Shown in pieces: positions 48,364-56,094 of a DNA stretch of 64,000 nt; the stretch's first letter is position 1; every line of letters starts with the position of its first letter. Both the position numbers and the translations under genes were made by a program. The notes below the pieces were generated by a model, which was not told the DNA's origin, made no database searches, and saw only the letters and a list, made by a program, of their open reading frames with translations. The stretch is from Lentimicrobiaceae bacterium (GTDB lineage: Bacteria > Bacteroidota > Bacteroidia > Bacteroidales > F082), in NCBI GenBank assembly GCA_002708315.1, contig PANC01000021.1:37778-101777 (forward strand). Direction: 5' to 3'.

Positions 48364-49434
48364 ATGAATATCGCGGCCTTGGTATCGGGAGGAGTAGACA
48401 GTTCTGTTACTGTTCCTCTTCTAAAACAAATGGGATTTGATCCTCATATATTCTATATCAAAATTGGTATGGAGGATCAAGATTCATTCATGGATTGTCC
48501 GTCTGAGGAAGACATAGAAATAACTACATGGATAGCAAAAAAATATGGCTGTAGGTTTGATATTATTGACTTACAAGAAGAATATTGGGCAACAGTAGTT
48601 AAATATACCATTGATACTGTTAAAAAGGGTTTGACTCCAAATCCTGATATAATGTGTAATCTACTGATAAAATTTGGAGCGTTTAATGATAGATATGGGC
48701 AAGAATTTGATAAGATTGCAACTGGTCATTATGCAACTAACTATGAAACAAAAGATGGTGTATTTTTAGCTGCGGCAAAAGATAAAGTAAAAGATCAAAC
48801 ATACTTCTTATCACAAATAACTTATCCACAGCTGCATAAAACATTATTTCCAATTGGTAATCTTCCCAAATCAGATGTCAGAAAAATTGCATCAGAAATG
48901 AGCCTTCCAAGTGCCACAAGAAAAGATAGCCAAGGTATATGTTTCTTGGGTAAAATCAACTACGGAGAATTCATAAAAAATCAAATAGGCATAATGCCAG
49001 GAGAGATAAGAGAGCTTGAATCAAACAAATTACTTGGCGAGCACCAGGGTTTTTGGTTTCATACTATTGGACAGAGAAGAGGTTTAAAACTTGGAGGTGG
49101 ACCATGGTTTGTTGTGAAAAAAGACACAATCAATAATATAATTTATGCTAGTAAGGGATACGACCCAATTTCAAGATATAGTGATGAGATAAAACTTGAT
49201 AGAGTACACTTTTTAAATCCTAACCATGATTATAGTGAACTAAATCAAATAAAATTTAAGATCCGTCATCAGCCTGAATTTATGGAAGGTTTTATCACCA
49301 TTGGTGATACCACAAGTAAAATTGTAAGTAAGGAAAAGATATCAGGCATAGCCCCAGGACAATTTACAGTAATGTATTCCAATGATGAAAAAACATGTAT
49401 TGGAAGTGCAATGATTTCAGAAGATAATAATTAA
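48364..49434 (+). CDS. mnmA: tRNA-specific 2-thiouridylase
   Basis: 356 residues from ATG 48364; the track start is a TTG. PP-loop ALVSGGVDSSV, catalytic cysteines in PDIMCNLLIKFGAF and SQGICFLGKINY, and HTIGQRRGLKLGG in the beta-barrel part. It thiolates U34 in tRNAs for Lys, Glu and Gln. Solitary, convergent with trpB across a hairpin. Confidence 0.95.
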   Translation: MNIAALVSGGVDSSVTVPLLKQMGFDPHIFYIKIGMEDQDSFMDCPSEEDIEITTWIAKKYGCRFDIIDLQEEYWATVVKYTIDTVKKGLTPNPDIMCNLLIKFGAFNDRYGQEFDKIATGHYATNYETKDGVFLAAAKDKVKDQTYFLSQITYPQLHKTLFPIGNLPKSDVRKIASEMSLPSATRKDSQGICFLGKINYGEFIKNQIGIMPGEIRELESNKLLGEHQGFWFHTIGQRRGLKLGGGPWFVVKKDTINNIIYASKGYDPISRYSDEIKLDRVHFLNPNHDYSELNQIKFKIRHQPEFMEGFITIGDTTSKIVSKEKISGIAPGQFTVMYSNDEKTCIGSAMISEDNN

Positions 49435-49458
49435 CCCCCCAATAAATTGGGAGGTTAA
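49431..49458. terminator. Hairpin between convergent mnmA and trpB
   Basis: 13-bp near-perfect stem TTAACCCCCCAAT / ATTGGGAGGTTAA with a 2-nt centre; the one mismatch is C-A on the plus strand and a G-U wobble on the minus. The mnmA stop lies inside it. No T-run follows on either strand, so termination is likely but not certain. Confidence 0.55.
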
Positions 49459-49476
49459 TCAGATCGCCATTACCAA

Positions 49477-50676
49477 TTAAAATAATTGATCTCTTCCAAC
49501 ATCCTTATCGCCTCTACCTGATAGATTTACGATGCTTATTTTATCACCCTGTCCCTTTAATAAACTCATGGCGAGAGCAACTGCGTGAGACGATTCAATG
49601 GCAGGGATAATTCCCTCTAGGCAGGAAAGGATTTTAAAAGCCTCCACAGCCTCGTCGTCTGTAACTGCATAGTATTTTGCTCTCTGTTTTTCCTTGAGAA
49701 GTGAATGTTGAGGGCTAACACCTGGATAGTCCAATCCTGCTGCAATTGAAGAAGTTGGACAAACATCACCATTTTCATCCGATATAGCATAGGAATATGT
49801 ACCTTGAAAAACACCCGGTTTACCAATCGAAAGAGTTGCAGCTGTTTTACCAGGTTCTGCTTTTTCTCCGCCACCTTCGGCAGCATAAATATTGACCGGA
49901 TCATAAAGAAATTCTTGAAACAGACCAATTGCATTGCTACCACCTCCAACACAAGCAAATATATTATCTGGCAATCGTCCCTCTGCCTCAATAATTTGTT
50001 TTTTAGCCTCTTTACCAATAATTCTTTGGAAATACCCAACTATCGTTGGGTATGGGTGCGGACCCACCTGTGATCCAAGCAAGTAAAATACATCGGGGTT
50101 CTCAACATAATACCCCAGAGCTGCATCAACAGCATCCTTTAGTGTTGCTCTACCATTTTCAGTCAATATTACTTCGGCACCAAGCAATTTTATTCGATTT
50201 ACATTCATTTGCTGCCGCCTAGCATCCTTTGCGCCCATAAATATTTTACACTTGATGCCAAATAATGCTGCAGCGGTTGCCGTGGCCACACCATGCTGAC
50301 CTGCACCTGTTTCAGCCACTACTTCAGTTGCTCCCATTCTATGGGCAAGTAATATCTGACCAATGGTATTATTTATTTTATGTGACCCTGTATGATTAAG
50401 ATCCTCTCTTTTTAGATAAATCTTTGATCCAACATGCTTTGACAAGTTTCTTGCATAATATAAAGGTGAAGGTCTTCCAACAAATTTTTCCAAATAGTAT
50501 TTATATTCATTTTCAAAGTCATCGTGCAATATTTCTTTTTGAAAGAAATCTGCCAGTTTGATTAGCTTCTCCTCAAGGTGTGGAGGAACATACATCCCTC
50601 CAAAATCACCGTACATGCCATTATTAGCTTCAAAAATATTTTCATTTGATTTAATCGATTTTATAGTTGTTTCCAT
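49477..50676 (-). CDS. trpB: Tryptophan synthase beta chain, stand-alone copy
   Basis: 399 residues, PLP enzyme condensing indole and serine. The Schiff-base lysine is Lys100 in HTGSHKINN; VAETGAGQHGVATA, GGGSNAIGLF and LSGRGDKDV are intact. The N-terminus reads DFGGMYVPPHLEEKL, where the family more often has FGG(R/A)(F/Y)(V/I)PE. No trpA or other trp gene adjoins it; mnmA follows convergently. It is preceded by a leader with two Trp-rich ORFs and a terminator hairpin, so expression is very probably controlled by tryptophan supply. Whether a second trpB exists elsewhere cannot be seen. Confidence 0.95.
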   Translation of the reverse strand: METTIKSIKSNENIFEANNGMYGDFGGMYVPPHLEEKLIKLADFFQKEILHDDFENEYKYYLEKFVGRPSPLYYARNLSKHVGSKIYLKREDLNHTGSHKINNTIGQILLAHRMGATEVVAETGAGQHGVATATAAALFGIKCKIFMGAKDARRQQMNVNRIKLLGAEVILTENGRATLKDAVDAALGYYVENPDVFYLLGSQVGPHPYPTIVGYFQRIIGKEAKKQIIEAEGRLPDNIFACVGGGSNAIGLFQEFLYDPVNIYAAEGGGEKAEPGKTAATLSIGKPGVFQGTYSYAISDENGDVCPTSSIAAGLDYPGVSPQHSLLKEKQRAKYYAVTDDEAVEAFKILSCLEGIIPAIESSHAVALAMSLLKGQGDKISIVNLSGRGDKDVGRDQLF

Positions 50677-50709: not shown

Positions 50710-50781
50710 CTAAGTGTCTTGGAAAAACCACCATCGAAAAATTGTTCTTGCCTTCCAGCTATTAATTTTAATTCTTTGCAT
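50710..50781 (-). CDS. Second Trp-rich leader ORF upstream of trpB (23 codons)
   Basis: ATG to TAG, 23 codons, too short for the ORF track. It contains SWKARTIFRWWFF: three Trp, two of them adjacent, and two adjacent Phe. It lies downstream of the terminator hairpin and ends 33 nt before the trpB ATG. Its opening (MQRIKINSW) loosely echoes the first leader (MIKITTNNW). No T-tracted hairpin follows it, so it would more likely act on translation or mRNA structure than on termination. I see the ORF directly; that it is translated is inferred. Confidence 0.6.
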   Translation of the reverse strand: MQRIKINSWKARTIFRWWFFQDT

Positions 50782-50800: not shown

Positions 50801-50834
50801 AAAAACCGCCTCATTTTGTAATGAGACGGTTTTT
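50801..50834 (-). terminator. Attenuator terminator in the trpB leader
   Basis: 15-bp stem with a 4-nt loop (arms 50801-50815 and 50820-50834). On the minus strand the only irregular pair is a G-U wobble, and it is followed by TTTTTTTGTTTT. On the plus strand it has a C-A mismatch, so it is built for minus-strand transcripts. It begins 22 nt after the first leader stop codon. It may also end hldD read-through. Confidence 0.85.
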
Positions 50835-50856
50835 ATATTTCTAAAATAAGAGATAA

Positions 50857-50928
50857 TCACATAACAGAATGTCCAACTAAGGAGTATTTGTTGTGCCACC
50901 ACCAATTATTCGTTGTTATCTTAATCAT
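50857..50928 (-). CDS. trpB leader peptide with three consecutive Trp codons (23 codons)
   Basis: ATG to TGA, 23 codons, absent from the ORF track. It contains NNWWWHNKYS, encoded TGGTGGTGG. Trp is about 1% of residues in ordinary proteins, so three in a row ahead of a terminator and a Trp-synthesis gene is the signature of ribosome-mediated attenuation: stalling at Trp codons would let transcription pass the hairpin. From memory, a predicted RNA class called Bacteroid-trp has this arrangement. The ATG is so close to the -7 box that the mRNA may be almost leaderless. Confidence 0.85.
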   Translation of the reverse strand: MIKITTNNWWWHNKYSLVGHSVM

Positions 50929-50934
50929 ATTGTG

Positions 50935-50966
50935 CAAATATATAAGTAAAGTTTTTACTCCAACAA
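50935..50966 (-). promoter_or_regulatory. -33/-7 promoter of the trpB leader
   Basis: Minus-strand TATATTTG (50942-50935) preceded by TTGTTG, giving TTG at 18 or 21 bp. It lies just after the hldD stop at 50971. The predicted start is at or within a few bases of the leader ATG at 50928. Confidence 0.6.
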
Positions 50967-52073: not shown

Positions 52074-54254
52074 ATGAAAACCACTACAAGCAAATCATTT
52101 CTTATCATTCTATTTATTATTATTTTCGGGTTTAGATCATTTTCTCAAATTAATCAAGGAGGTATTCCACCAAGCATTGAGTATAATATTATTGATGAAA
52201 CCGACAAAATAAATCTTATTAAACCCAGCATGAATGCAATTCATGAGGAAGATATTATAAGGGAGGCTACAAATCCAAATGCACCTCAGAGAATGGGCAT
52301 TTCAGTTAAGGTTAATAAGACAATGTCAGAAATTGGCACATGGACGGATATTGAAGGCTTAGGAAGTATATGGAGGTTAGAGATTAAAGTTGAAGATGCA
52401 GTTGCTCTGGGAGTATATTACAATGATTTTTATATTCCTCAAGGAGGTAAGTTATTTTTATACAACAAAGACAGATCCTATTTAATAGGTGCTTACACTA
52501 ATATTAATAATCCAGAGGAAAGCTTATTTGCGACAGAATTTATTCCCGGCGATGTTGTTATATTAGAATATTTCAAACCCTTAAGTGTTAAAGAAGATGC
52601 AATAATATCAATAAGCAATGTTGCTTATGCATACCGCTTAATTGATTTTTCATTTAATAAAAATACCAACTCATGGTATTGCATGATTAACGTTGCGTGT
52701 CAAGAGGGTGACAACTGGGAAGATCAATCCAAGGGGATAGCTAGAATGTCCATAAGAATCGGTGGTAGTTATTATTGGTGCTCTGGTTCTTTGATAAATA
52801 ATACAAATAATGACAGAACACCTTATTTTCTCTCTGCAGCTCATTGTGGTGAAGGATCAACATCAAGCGACAGACTTCAATGGGTTTTTTACTTCAATTT
52901 TCAATCATCAACTTGTAGTGGTAGTAGCAGCGGGTATAACTCAATTACTGGCTGTCAATTAAAGGCCAAGGATCAAAGTTATGCTGATAGTGGATCAGAT
53001 TTCGACCTCATGAAATTTAATAGCTCTATCCCTGACTCTTATGATGTATATTACAATGGATGGAACCGCACCAATTCTGCCGATGATGCAGGAAGTGGAG
53101 TTGGAATACATCATCCTGCAGGCGACATAAAAAAAATATCAACCTATGATACTCCACTTATATCTTCAACATTTTGGAATGGTCTTCACAGTCACTGGCG
53201 ATTAACATGGGCTGAAACTATTAATGGCAAATCAATAATGCAAGGAGGTTCATCAGGGTCACCAGTTTTCGATAGTAATGGTCTTATCATGGGAGATTTA
53301 ACTGGTGGTTATGCATCAAATACCTGTGAAAATCCTTCCCCTGCTTACTATGGTAAGGTATGGTATTCTTGGGATAAAAATGGTACAACTAATTCAACAA
53401 TGTTAAAGCCATGGCTTGATCCAGGTAATACCGGTATTGAGAAGTTACCCGGAGTATCATGGGAAATTATACCACCAGAGGCTGATTTTGAAGCGATGTC
53501 AACAAATATCATTCAAGGTGACACTGTTTTCTTTAGTGATTTATCTGGACCAAGTATCTTAGAATGGTCATGGACATTTGAGGGCGGTGAACCATCAACA
53601 TCAGATCTCATGAACCCAAATGTATTTTATGCAGACACAGGTTTTTTTGATGTTTCCCTAACTGTAACAAATGCAGATGGAACCGACACAGAAATAAAAT
53701 CAGATTTTGTATATGTTGAGCAAATGCAACTTCCAATAACTGAATTTGAAGCTAATATCACAACAGTTGCCCCAGGAGGAGTAGTTTCTTTTACGGACCT
53801 CACTCTCAATAACCCAGACCAATGGTCATGGAGTTTTGATGGAGGTTCTCCCTCCACTTCTGAATACCAAAACCCAACGGTTAGATTTAATACACCAGGT
53901 ATCTACAATATATCCTTGGTAACTTCAAATCTGGGTGGATCAGATTCCCTTTTAAAAGAAGATTATATACACGTAGCAATTGTTAATATTGGAGAAAATA
54001 TTTCAGATAAAAAGCCTTCAATATATCCTAACCCTAGTAATGGGCTTTTCACAATAGATTTTAATAATGCATATAGCAGTGATGTAGAAATTGAAATTAA
54101 AACAGCATCTGGAAAAAGTATCCAAGTTCATAAAAGAATAAATACTTCTGAATCATTTATCGTAGATATGAATGATAGTCCTAACGGAATTTATTTGATT
54201 AATATTTATAATGGCACATCTAATATTACTCAAAAAATAGCGTTATTCAGGTAA
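52074..54254 (+). CDS. Secreted lysyl-endopeptidase-like serine protease with two PKD domains and T9SS sorting domain
   Basis: 726 residues. Signal peptide (about 1-25), a propeptide-like region to about 195, then an S1-type domain resembling lysyl endopeptidase: His in FLSAAHCGEG, Asp in SGSDFDLMKF, Ser in GGSSGSPVF, plus GWNRTNSADDAGSGVGIHHPAGD. Two PKD domains follow (about 470-550, EWSWTFEGGEPSTSD; about 560-640, QWSWSFDGGSPSTSE). The C-terminal T9SS type A domain starts YPNPSNGLFTIDF and ends near the terminus. Probably exported or surface-attached. The next gene, 16 nt on, is a paralogue. Confidence 0.92.
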   Translation: MKTTTSKSFLIILFIIIFGFRSFSQINQGGIPPSIEYNIIDETDKINLIKPSMNAIHEEDIIREATNPNAPQRMGISVKVNKTMSEIGTWTDIEGLGSIWRLEIKVEDAVALGVYYNDFYIPQGGKLFLYNKDRSYLIGAYTNINNPEESLFATEFIPGDVVILEYFKPLSVKEDAIISISNVAYAYRLIDFSFNKNTNSWYCMINVACQEGDNWEDQSKGIARMSIRIGGSYYWCSGSLINNTNNDRTPYFLSAAHCGEGSTSSDRLQWVFYFNFQSSTCSGSSSGYNSITGCQLKAKDQSYADSGSDFDLMKFNSSIPDSYDVYYNGWNRTNSADDAGSGVGIHHPAGDIKKISTYDTPLISSTFWNGLHSHWRLTWAETINGKSIMQGGSSGSPVFDSNGLIMGDLTGGYASNTCENPSPAYYGKVWYSWDKNGTTNSTMLKPWLDPGNTGIEKLPGVSWEIIPPEADFEAMSTNIIQGDTVFFSDLSGPSILEWSWTFEGGEPSTSDLMNPNVFYADTGFFDVSLTVTNADGTDTEIKSDFVYVEQMQLPITEFEANITTVAPGGVVSFTDLTLNNPDQWSWSFDGGSPSTSEYQNPTVRFNTPGIYNISLVTSNLGGSDSLLKEDYIHVAIVNIGENISDKKPSIYPNPSNGLFTIDFNNAYSSDVEIEIKTASGKSIQVHKRINTSESFIVDMNDSPNGIYLINIYNGTSNITQKIALFR

Positions 54255-54270
54255 GGCTATAAAAAATCGT

Positions 54271-56094
54271 ATGAGTAAACATTTATTTTTGATTATCCTA
54301 TTAGTAGCACTATTCATTAAACTTGATGCACAAAACAAATTATCAAAACCATTATCATCTCAATACGAACTAAGCTCTATTATACCATTAAAAAGTTTTA
54401 TAAACACCCCAATAATAGTTGATAATAAAAGTAAAAACTACCCTCCGCAAGCTGGTTACACAATTCCCATTAAAATAAGTTTGGTAGATGGTATTATAGA
54501 TTCAACCTTATCTGGTTATATATGGAGAACAACCATCGAAATCAAAAATTCTAATTCGGTCAATTTTTATATTAGCAACGTGAGTCTTGAAGATTATCAG
54601 AGTTTATTTTTATACACTAAAGAATATGCTCATCTTACTGAATATCATTCCATTGATGCTAATAATATATCTACTGATTTCATTGATGGAGATAAAATAA
54701 TAGTAGAATTAAACTCAAAATCAGAAATAACTAATATCCCATTTCAGATTATGGAAGCAGGGATATTATTATCCAAACCACAGGGTTTTGGAGATGCAGG
54801 TAATTGTGAAGTTCATGTAAACTGTAGTGAAGGTAACGATTGGCAATTTCAAAAAAATGGAATTGCCCGTATACTAGTAAAGGAAGGTAATACAACCTTT
54901 TGGTGTTCAGGATCATTGATTAATAACACAAGGAATAATGGTGAACCGCTTTTTCTCACAGCAAATCATTGCGGAATAAACTCTGACTCTGTTGATTACG
55001 CAGATTGGATGTTTTATTTCAATTTTGAATCAGATGATTGTATTCAACCATTGGAAGAGCCCGATTATAACTTATTAACTGGCTCAACACTTCTTTCGAA
55101 TAGTAAGTTTGGCACTGGAGGTGGTTCGGATTTTAAACTTCTTAGATTATCTGAGAATCCAGGCCTCCAATTCAACCCATATTTTAATGGTTGGGACAGA
55201 AGCACCACAGAATCACCTAATGGTGTAACTATACATCATCCACAAGGCGACCTAAAAATGATATCTACATACCAGAAGCCATTAACATCAACAAAATATG
55301 ATAATGATCAGGTTGATCCAAATGGTATGTATTGGAGAGTTGTGTGGGCCCAGACAGAAAATGGCTTTGGAGTAACTGAAGGTGGGTCATCTGGAAGCCC
55401 ACTATTTAATGAAGAGGGATTAATAATTGGTGCTCTAACAGGAGGTAGAGCATCATGCACATACCTTGAACAGCCCGATTTTTATGGAAAGTTAAGTTAT
55501 TCATGGGCACCTTTAACATCTGATTCTTTATCACAACTCGCTCATTGGCTTGACCCCATTGGCAGTGGAGTTATGTATTTAAATGGATCCAGCCTAGATT
55601 CAACAAATGTATTTGCAGGGTTTGTGTCTAATACAAACACGGTAATAATTGGTGATAATATTACATTTAAAAATACCTCCATTGGAAATATTACAAGTTA
55701 TAAGTGGCTATTTGAAGGAGGTGAACCCTCTTATTCAGAATTAGAATTTCCGGAAAATATCAAATATAAACGAATAGGAGAATTCGATGTGACCTTAATT
55801 GTTTCATCATCTAAAGATTCTGATACATTGATAGCGCCTGATTATATAAAAGTCGTTCCTAACATATTCCCAAACCCTAGTGATGGATTATTTAAACTTG
55901 TCTTTGGAAAAGAAATTCCCGATTCCTATTCCCTAAGGATTTTTGGACTAGATGGTAAAGAAGTTAGGTTTATGATTAAGGAAAAAGGAACAAATTATTT
56001 AGTTATAAACATGAATTACTCCGAAGCTGGCTACTATTTAGTAAGGTTTTCTTCGGATGAACTAATTACCAGCTATAAGGTTATGGTATTTTAA
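54271..56094 (+). CDS. Second secreted lysyl-endopeptidase-like protease with one PKD domain and T9SS sorting domain
   Basis: 607 residues, paralogue of the preceding gene. Signal peptide (LFLIILLVALFIKLDAQ), prodomain, and a protease domain with intact triad: LTANHCGINSDS, GGSDFKLLRL and GGSSGSPLF. The NGWDRSTTESPNGVTIHHPQGD block is shared with the paralogue. One PKD-like domain (YKWLFEGGEPSYSE) instead of two, then a T9SS domain (FPNPSDGLFKLVFG). Its 3' end overlaps rluD on the other strand by 4 nt. Confidence 0.92.
   Translation: MSKHLFLIILLVALFIKLDAQNKLSKPLSSQYELSSIIPLKSFINTPIIVDNKSKNYPPQAGYTIPIKISLVDGIIDSTLSGYIWRTTIEIKNSNSVNFYISNVSLEDYQSLFLYTKEYAHLTEYHSIDANNISTDFIDGDKIIVELNSKSEITNIPFQIMEAGILLSKPQGFGDAGNCEVHVNCSEGNDWQFQKNGIARILVKEGNTTFWCSGSLINNTRNNGEPLFLTANHCGINSDSVDYADWMFYFNFESDDCIQPLEEPDYNLLTGSTLLSNSKFGTGGGSDFKLLRLSENPGLQFNPYFNGWDRSTTESPNGVTIHHPQGDLKMISTYQKPLTSTKYDNDQVDPNGMYWRVVWAQTENGFGVTEGGSSGSPLFNEEGLIIGALTGGRASCTYLEQPDFYGKLSYSWAPLTSDSLSQLAHWLDPIGSGVMYLNGSSLDSTNVFAGFVSNTNTVIIGDNITFKNTSIGNITSYKWLFEGGEPSYSELEFPENIKYKRIGEFDVTLIVSSSKDSDTLIAPDYIKVVPNIFPNPSDGLFKLVFGKEIPDSYSLRIFGLDGKEVRFMIKEKGTNYLVINMNYSEAGYYLVRFSSDELITSYKVMVF

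Follow-up and report, generated by a model that had tools for sequence, protein, structure and literature searches.

A stand-alone trpB gene of an uncultured member of the Bacteroidales very probably lies under the control of a ribosome-mediated transcription attenuator, which, as judged from sequence comparison and RNA folding models, would induce this putative salvage gene when charged tRNA-Trp is scarce. The gene (49477..50676; tryptophan synthase beta subunit, TIGR00263, 519 bits vs. a cut-off of 392) encodes a protein without any Trp residue and is located, like all other features of the element, on the minus strand of the window, by which we mean the whole stretch of 64,000 nucleotides that was analyzed. 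The upstream gene, hldD (51936-50971; TIGR02197 match), ends 42 nt before the start, on the same strand, of a 23-codon ORF (ORF1, 50857..50928), predicted to be leaderless and identified by direct reading and by conservation. Its product, MIKITTNNWWWHNKYSLVGHSVM, is the leader peptide, and its three tandem Trp codons (TGG; TGGTGGTGG; 50896..50904), which read WW, WWW or WxW in relatives, would be the sensing site. Exactly 22 nt past the ORF1 stop begins an intrinsic terminator (50801..50834; regions 3:4), recognized by folding and by its counterparts in relatives, with the letters AAAAACCGTCTCATT-ACAA-AATGAGGCGGTTTTT, that is, a hairpin of 15 bp with a 4-nt loop that runs into a T-run and has a folding energy of -18.5 kcal/mol. 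The original prediction of a Trp-rich ORF, a 22-nt spacer, a hairpin with T-run and trpB was found by direct reading to be exact in every detail. The 141-nt leader as a whole folds at -41 kcal/mol (z = -5.5 vs. dinucleotide shuffles), and a terminator-like hairpin detected 3' of trpB in a hairpin scan (49428..49461) is consistent with a monocistronic trpB transcript. Elsewhere in the window, two adjacent plus-strand genes (52074-54254 and 54271-56094) encode similar large proteins which, read by eye, each have a signal-peptide-like start and carry the trypsin-like motifs AHCG and GGSSGSPVF in the one and NHCG and GGSSGSPLF in the other.

The strongest argument for a regulatory element is its conservation. 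Of 48 related trpB loci whose upstream sequence was long enough, most of them from metagenome-assembled genomes, approximately 45 have a leader ORF with a Trp run and, past it, a terminator. Forty-two such loci were available in the first round, and 38 of these passed a scripted search that chose ORFs for their Trp runs; L026 was scored by hand and added to them, and in this set the terminator begins 21-33 nt past the ORF stop. Several loci, including L104 and L155-L160, were read by eye: at L104 there is no element within 420 nt upstream of trpB, the whole element being located further up in a wider sequence, and of the six further loci five (L156-L160) have the element and one (L155) is unclear. 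It is absent at L117 and L118, where upstream sequence was sufficient. No feature of the element is more constant than the run of Trp codons, and since this run is conserved together with the terminator across homologous loci, which we regard as the decisive control, the arrangement is not due to chance. In the same genus the leaders carry NNNWWWH or NNNYWWH, in every case together with a terminator, so that the close relatives, in which a loss of the Trp codons or the hairpin would have spoken against attenuation, retain both.

The same data bear on a simpler explanation, namely that the hairpin is a plain terminator of hldD and that the Trp-rich reading frame exists by chance. The position of the hairpin, as the first strong terminator behind a gene that ends so close to ORF1, is in its favor, and the hairpin may well end hldD transcripts also. 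However, the upstream gene varies among the loci while the ORF and the terminator stay with trpB, which indicates that the element belongs to trpB, and the conserved Trp runs, along with the co-variation of leader and terminator described below, largely refute this explanation, which we consider very improbable.

A competing antiterminator pairing, which had not been found in the original prediction, is in fact detectable. Near the ORF1 stop the leader has a G-rich or matching stretch that can pair with the loop of the terminator and the arms next to it. Across 39 loci the duplexes of cognate leaders and terminators had a mean of -15.6 kcal/mol, compared with -13.1 kcal/mol for swapped pairs (z = -6.1; none of 20,000 permutations was as low), and for 32 non-redundant terminators the comparison gave z = -5.9, with the same result after double-centring to remove row and column effects; as the loci in these swap tests are related, the z-scores are not strict probabilities. 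When cognate leaders were compared with dinucleotide-shuffled leaders the Stouffer value was -8.8, and there was modest support (Stouffer -4.7) for a family-wide hairpin right after the Trp codons; all E-values, z-scores and permutation counts reported here derive from related sequences. Clear complementary pairs are seen at L024 (GGGGAACTC/GAGTTCCCC), L116 (AGGAGAAA/TTTCTCCT), L110 (AGGGGATT/AATCCCCT) and L107 (GAAAAAGC/GCTTTTTC). The mutually exclusive pairing is thus evident from the swap and shuffle tests on the family and weak in the window taken alone, where the antiterminator is among the weaker ones, at -10.5 kcal/mol with interruptions and a z of only -0.5 relative to shuffled leaders.

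Masked folding of the window nevertheless produced the three states that are expected for an attenuator. With no ribosome, a long leader structure of the 1:2 type (50844..50911) is predicted, which buries the antiterminator strand (region 2; 50856..50871, around the ORF1 stop codon); with a ribosome occupying the Trp codons and a 3' end placed within the 3' arm of the terminator, 50871-50856 pairs with 50827-50812; and with a ribosome at the stop codon only the terminator remains. We propose that a promoter just past hldD would start the transcript almost at the ORF1 ATG. With enough Trp-tRNA the ribosome would reach the stop codon and cover the antiterminator strand, and the terminator would form. 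When Trp-tRNA is scarce the ribosome would stall on the three Trp codons, leaving 50871-50856 free to pair with the emerging 5' arm, the loop and the start of the 3' arm (50827-50812), so that the terminator would fail and trpB would be transcribed. In the absence of a ribosome the leader would fold on itself and termination would win. Since the completed terminator (-18.5 kcal/mol) is more stable than the antiterminator (-10.5 kcal/mol), antitermination would have to be kinetic. The claim of ribosome-mediated attenuation by Trp is therefore well supported by comparison, given that the Trp codons and terminator are kept while the neighbors change and that an antiterminator is detectable; the stalling of the ribosome, the direction of the response, the start of transcription and indole as substrate are our inferences.

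Ribosome-mediated attenuation requires a ribosome that closely trails RNA polymerase. As its leader peptide is predicted to be leaderless and the phylum makes little use of Shine-Dalgarno sequences, the element would make transcription-translation coupling in the Bacteroidota directly testable. A predicted -7 promoter element, TATATTTG (50935..50942), matches the Bacteroidota consensus TAnnTTTG. In Flavobacterium the -7 box is located at -12 to -5 (PMC9723704), which would place the start in the window at approximately 50930 and predicts a 5' UTR of about 2 nt, a near-zero length that formed no part of the original prediction. The box is 4-6 nt before the ORF1 ATG in ten loci, for which UTRs of 0-2 nt are predicted, and as other loci of the set have a longer spacing between box and ATG, the short UTR does not hold throughout the family. 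Where UTRs have been measured in Bacteroidota, those of such a length are in the minority, with 5.5% leaderless in one study (PMC9723704) and about 3.7% under 10 nt in another (PMC7366714).

The genomic context of the gene points to a role in salvage. The genome that contains the window (G000; 2.0 Mb) is 77.8% complete, and in all eight genomes of the host genus trpA (TIGR00262) and trpD (TIGR01245) remained without a match that exceeded the cut-off; the 95%-complete G006 of the same genus also lacks both, in agreement with G000, and each of the 14 control genomes was matched by both profiles. This type of trpB is carried by five of the eight and by 36 of 393 genomes sampled in the order. No match to it was obtained in G002, G004 and G005 of the host genus, and even the salvage gene is thus patchy. 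Among the 35 further genomes with this trpB, approximately 27 lack both trpA and trpD, with trpA over cut-off in seven and trpD in six (G176 has trpD as two pieces below cut-off and G372 a fragment of trpA), showing that most carriers are without the rest of the pathway. Based on these absences, in the genus and among the further carriers, we infer that the target is an indole-salvage gene, whose product would make Trp from indole and serine in a cell where no de novo pathway was detected. A classic biosynthetic attenuator would then act on one salvage gene in apparent tryptophan auxotrophs.

The stand-alone trpB had been considered an unusual target, but it is the normal one across the whole Bacteroidales clade of such genes. 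In a phylogenetic tree the lone TrpBs group together in a single clade with support of 100/100, separate from the TrpBs that are encoded in operons in this order; the deeper placement of the clade is weak, and for that reason no donor is claimed for a horizontal origin. TrpB has no Trp residue in 41 of 44 members of the clade, compared with 7 of 34 other TrpBs, and a gene that is expressed when Trp runs short would be expected to encode a protein nearly free of it.

A feature absent from the original prediction is a conserved second short ORF (ORF2, 50710..50781, MQRIKINSWKARTIFRWWFFQDT) in the interval between the terminator and trpB. An ORF2 with an invariant W-x7-W was identified at 20 loci, which are, besides the window, L003, L004, L021, L022, L028, L030, L031, L101, L102, L104, L107, L108, L116, L119, L121, L125, L127, L159 and L160. 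These lie on both sides of the deepest split of the TrpB clade in the tree, for which reason this ORF is probably old. Its consensus is I-x2-W-[LI]-x-[KR]-[ITV]-x-[FN]-R-W. The Trp codons themselves prove nothing, as W-x7-W was the criterion by which loci were chosen, but with the TGG codons removed the mean BLOSUM62 score per column was 0.67 in frame vs. -0.89 and -0.51 in the other frames, a contrast measured on the same data, and the in-frame score was reached by none of 1000 column permutations. Single-base codon differences were synonymous twice as often as expected (169 observed vs. 84 expected; 15 loci), with counts that are inflated by close relatives. A different Trp-rich ORF2, typically PWWWRGxP, is found at L026, L027, L109, L110, L111, L113 and L123, and its Trp and Arg codons run into a GC-rich hairpin without a T-run (Stouffer -5.5). 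When the terminator-trpB interval was examined at L112, L114, L120, L122 and L126 there was no ORF2. Two other interpretations of ORF2 were rejected: an RNA element, for the W-x7-W class of the window only (mean folding z of 0.04), and an upstream start of TrpB, because of intervening stops. At L105, an ORF that contains Trp codons, approximately 100 nt upstream of trpB, has a stop codon overlapping the start codon of trpB (ATGA), which suggests that this ORF is translationally coupled to trpB.

The presence of this second Trp-containing ORF in the window and in many relatives would be in keeping with control that is mainly translational, in which ORF1 and ORF2 tune the translation of trpB and termination at the hairpin is incidental, and leader ORFs near genes have been proposed to aid re-initiation (PMC4833913). 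However, the ORF2 stop is 33 nt from trpB in the window but approximately 430 nt from it at L104, which speaks against simple translational coupling; the five loci without ORF2 indicate that it is not required; and the co-variation of leader and terminator shows that the terminator is regulated. We consequently judge mainly translational control to be improbable and retain transcription attenuation as the primary mechanism. As the role of ORF2 we favor that of a functional peptide, whether nascent or free, and consider a codon sensor alone or a relic less likely. We tentatively speculate, rating it at about one chance in three, that this Trp-containing peptide is made only when the attenuator is open and adds a second layer of Trp-dependent control behind the leaderless first sensor, whether by sensing as a nascent chain or by acting as a small peptide. 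To our knowledge, two-step control by Trp with a second ORF has not been described for any trp gene, and ORF2 is a new candidate small protein tied to Trp starvation.

Comparison with known regulators of trp genes separates analogues from probable kin. Direct control of trpB by a small-molecule or tRNA riboswitch, with no translated leader, is highly improbable, although T-boxes do precede trpB elsewhere and the RF04312 trpB motif gives a weak match in the window. That match, at 27.9 bits, is far below the cut-off of 59 and the motif was described from Firmicutes and Fusobacteria (PMC11109978), so it was rejected, as were other weak Rfam matches in the window on score and described range; no T-box (RF00230) was found in the window at gathering with the same library that detects those just upstream of trpB, above cut-off, in Izimaplasma MAGs (L037, L038) and a Peptostreptococcaceae MAG (L032); and the most constant feature of the element is a run of Trp codons. 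These T-box leaders follow the same logic as the attenuator proposed here, raising trpB when tRNA-Trp is uncharged, but they sense the tRNA directly and have no leader peptide, and are analogues rather than homologues. The attenuator of the E. coli trp operon (RF00513; 16.5 bits in the window vs. 41) shares the tandem Trp codons and the 1:2 / 2:3 / 3:4 logic, but differs in sequence and has a whole operon as its target. Unlike in E. coli, the antiterminator of the window extends over the loop of the terminator and the arms on either side of it.

Mycobacterial polycysteine attenuators act on translationally coupled genes. These leaderless short-ORF attenuators (reviewed in PMC9031893) resemble the window in having a short ORF with a run of codons for one amino acid right at the transcript's 5' end, but they respond to cysteine and belong to another phylum. 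The closest counterpart is Bacteroid-trp (RF01692; Weinberg 2010, PMC2864571), in which a Trp-run leader ORF is likewise followed by a terminator in Bacteroidota; as in that class the element precedes a tryptophan biosynthesis gene, here a lone trpB without trpA or trpD. The suggested link to this class held in that its model aligned over its full length (1-131), but the score of 38.8 bits did not reach the gathering threshold of 49, and at gathering Rfam gave no match in the window. Four operonic trp leaders of the same order also fell below 49 (three at 41.7-48.5 and the fourth at 29.2 bits), and the threshold is thus a poor discriminator within this order. Of the relatives with a lone trpB that were scanned, part of them at gathering only, just the near-identical L002 gave a match, and a search of G000 and G006 with this model for other Trp-attenuated genes returned just this trpB leader; an attenuated lone trpB that spans the whole Bacteroidales clade has thus been largely missed by Rfam. 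Leaders of trpE and operonic trpB in the same order show, by eye, the same complementarity of leader to terminator loop (e.g., L144, GAGAGGT/ACCTCTC, and L143, GTCGTGAG/CTCACGAC), and the native trpE leaders L142, L144 and L147 showed no ORF2. The window differs from Bacteroid-trp in its lone salvage target, its predicted 2-nt 5' UTR and its extra ORF2; by Rfam's rule it is not a member, but it would work like Bacteroid-trp and is probably akin to it.
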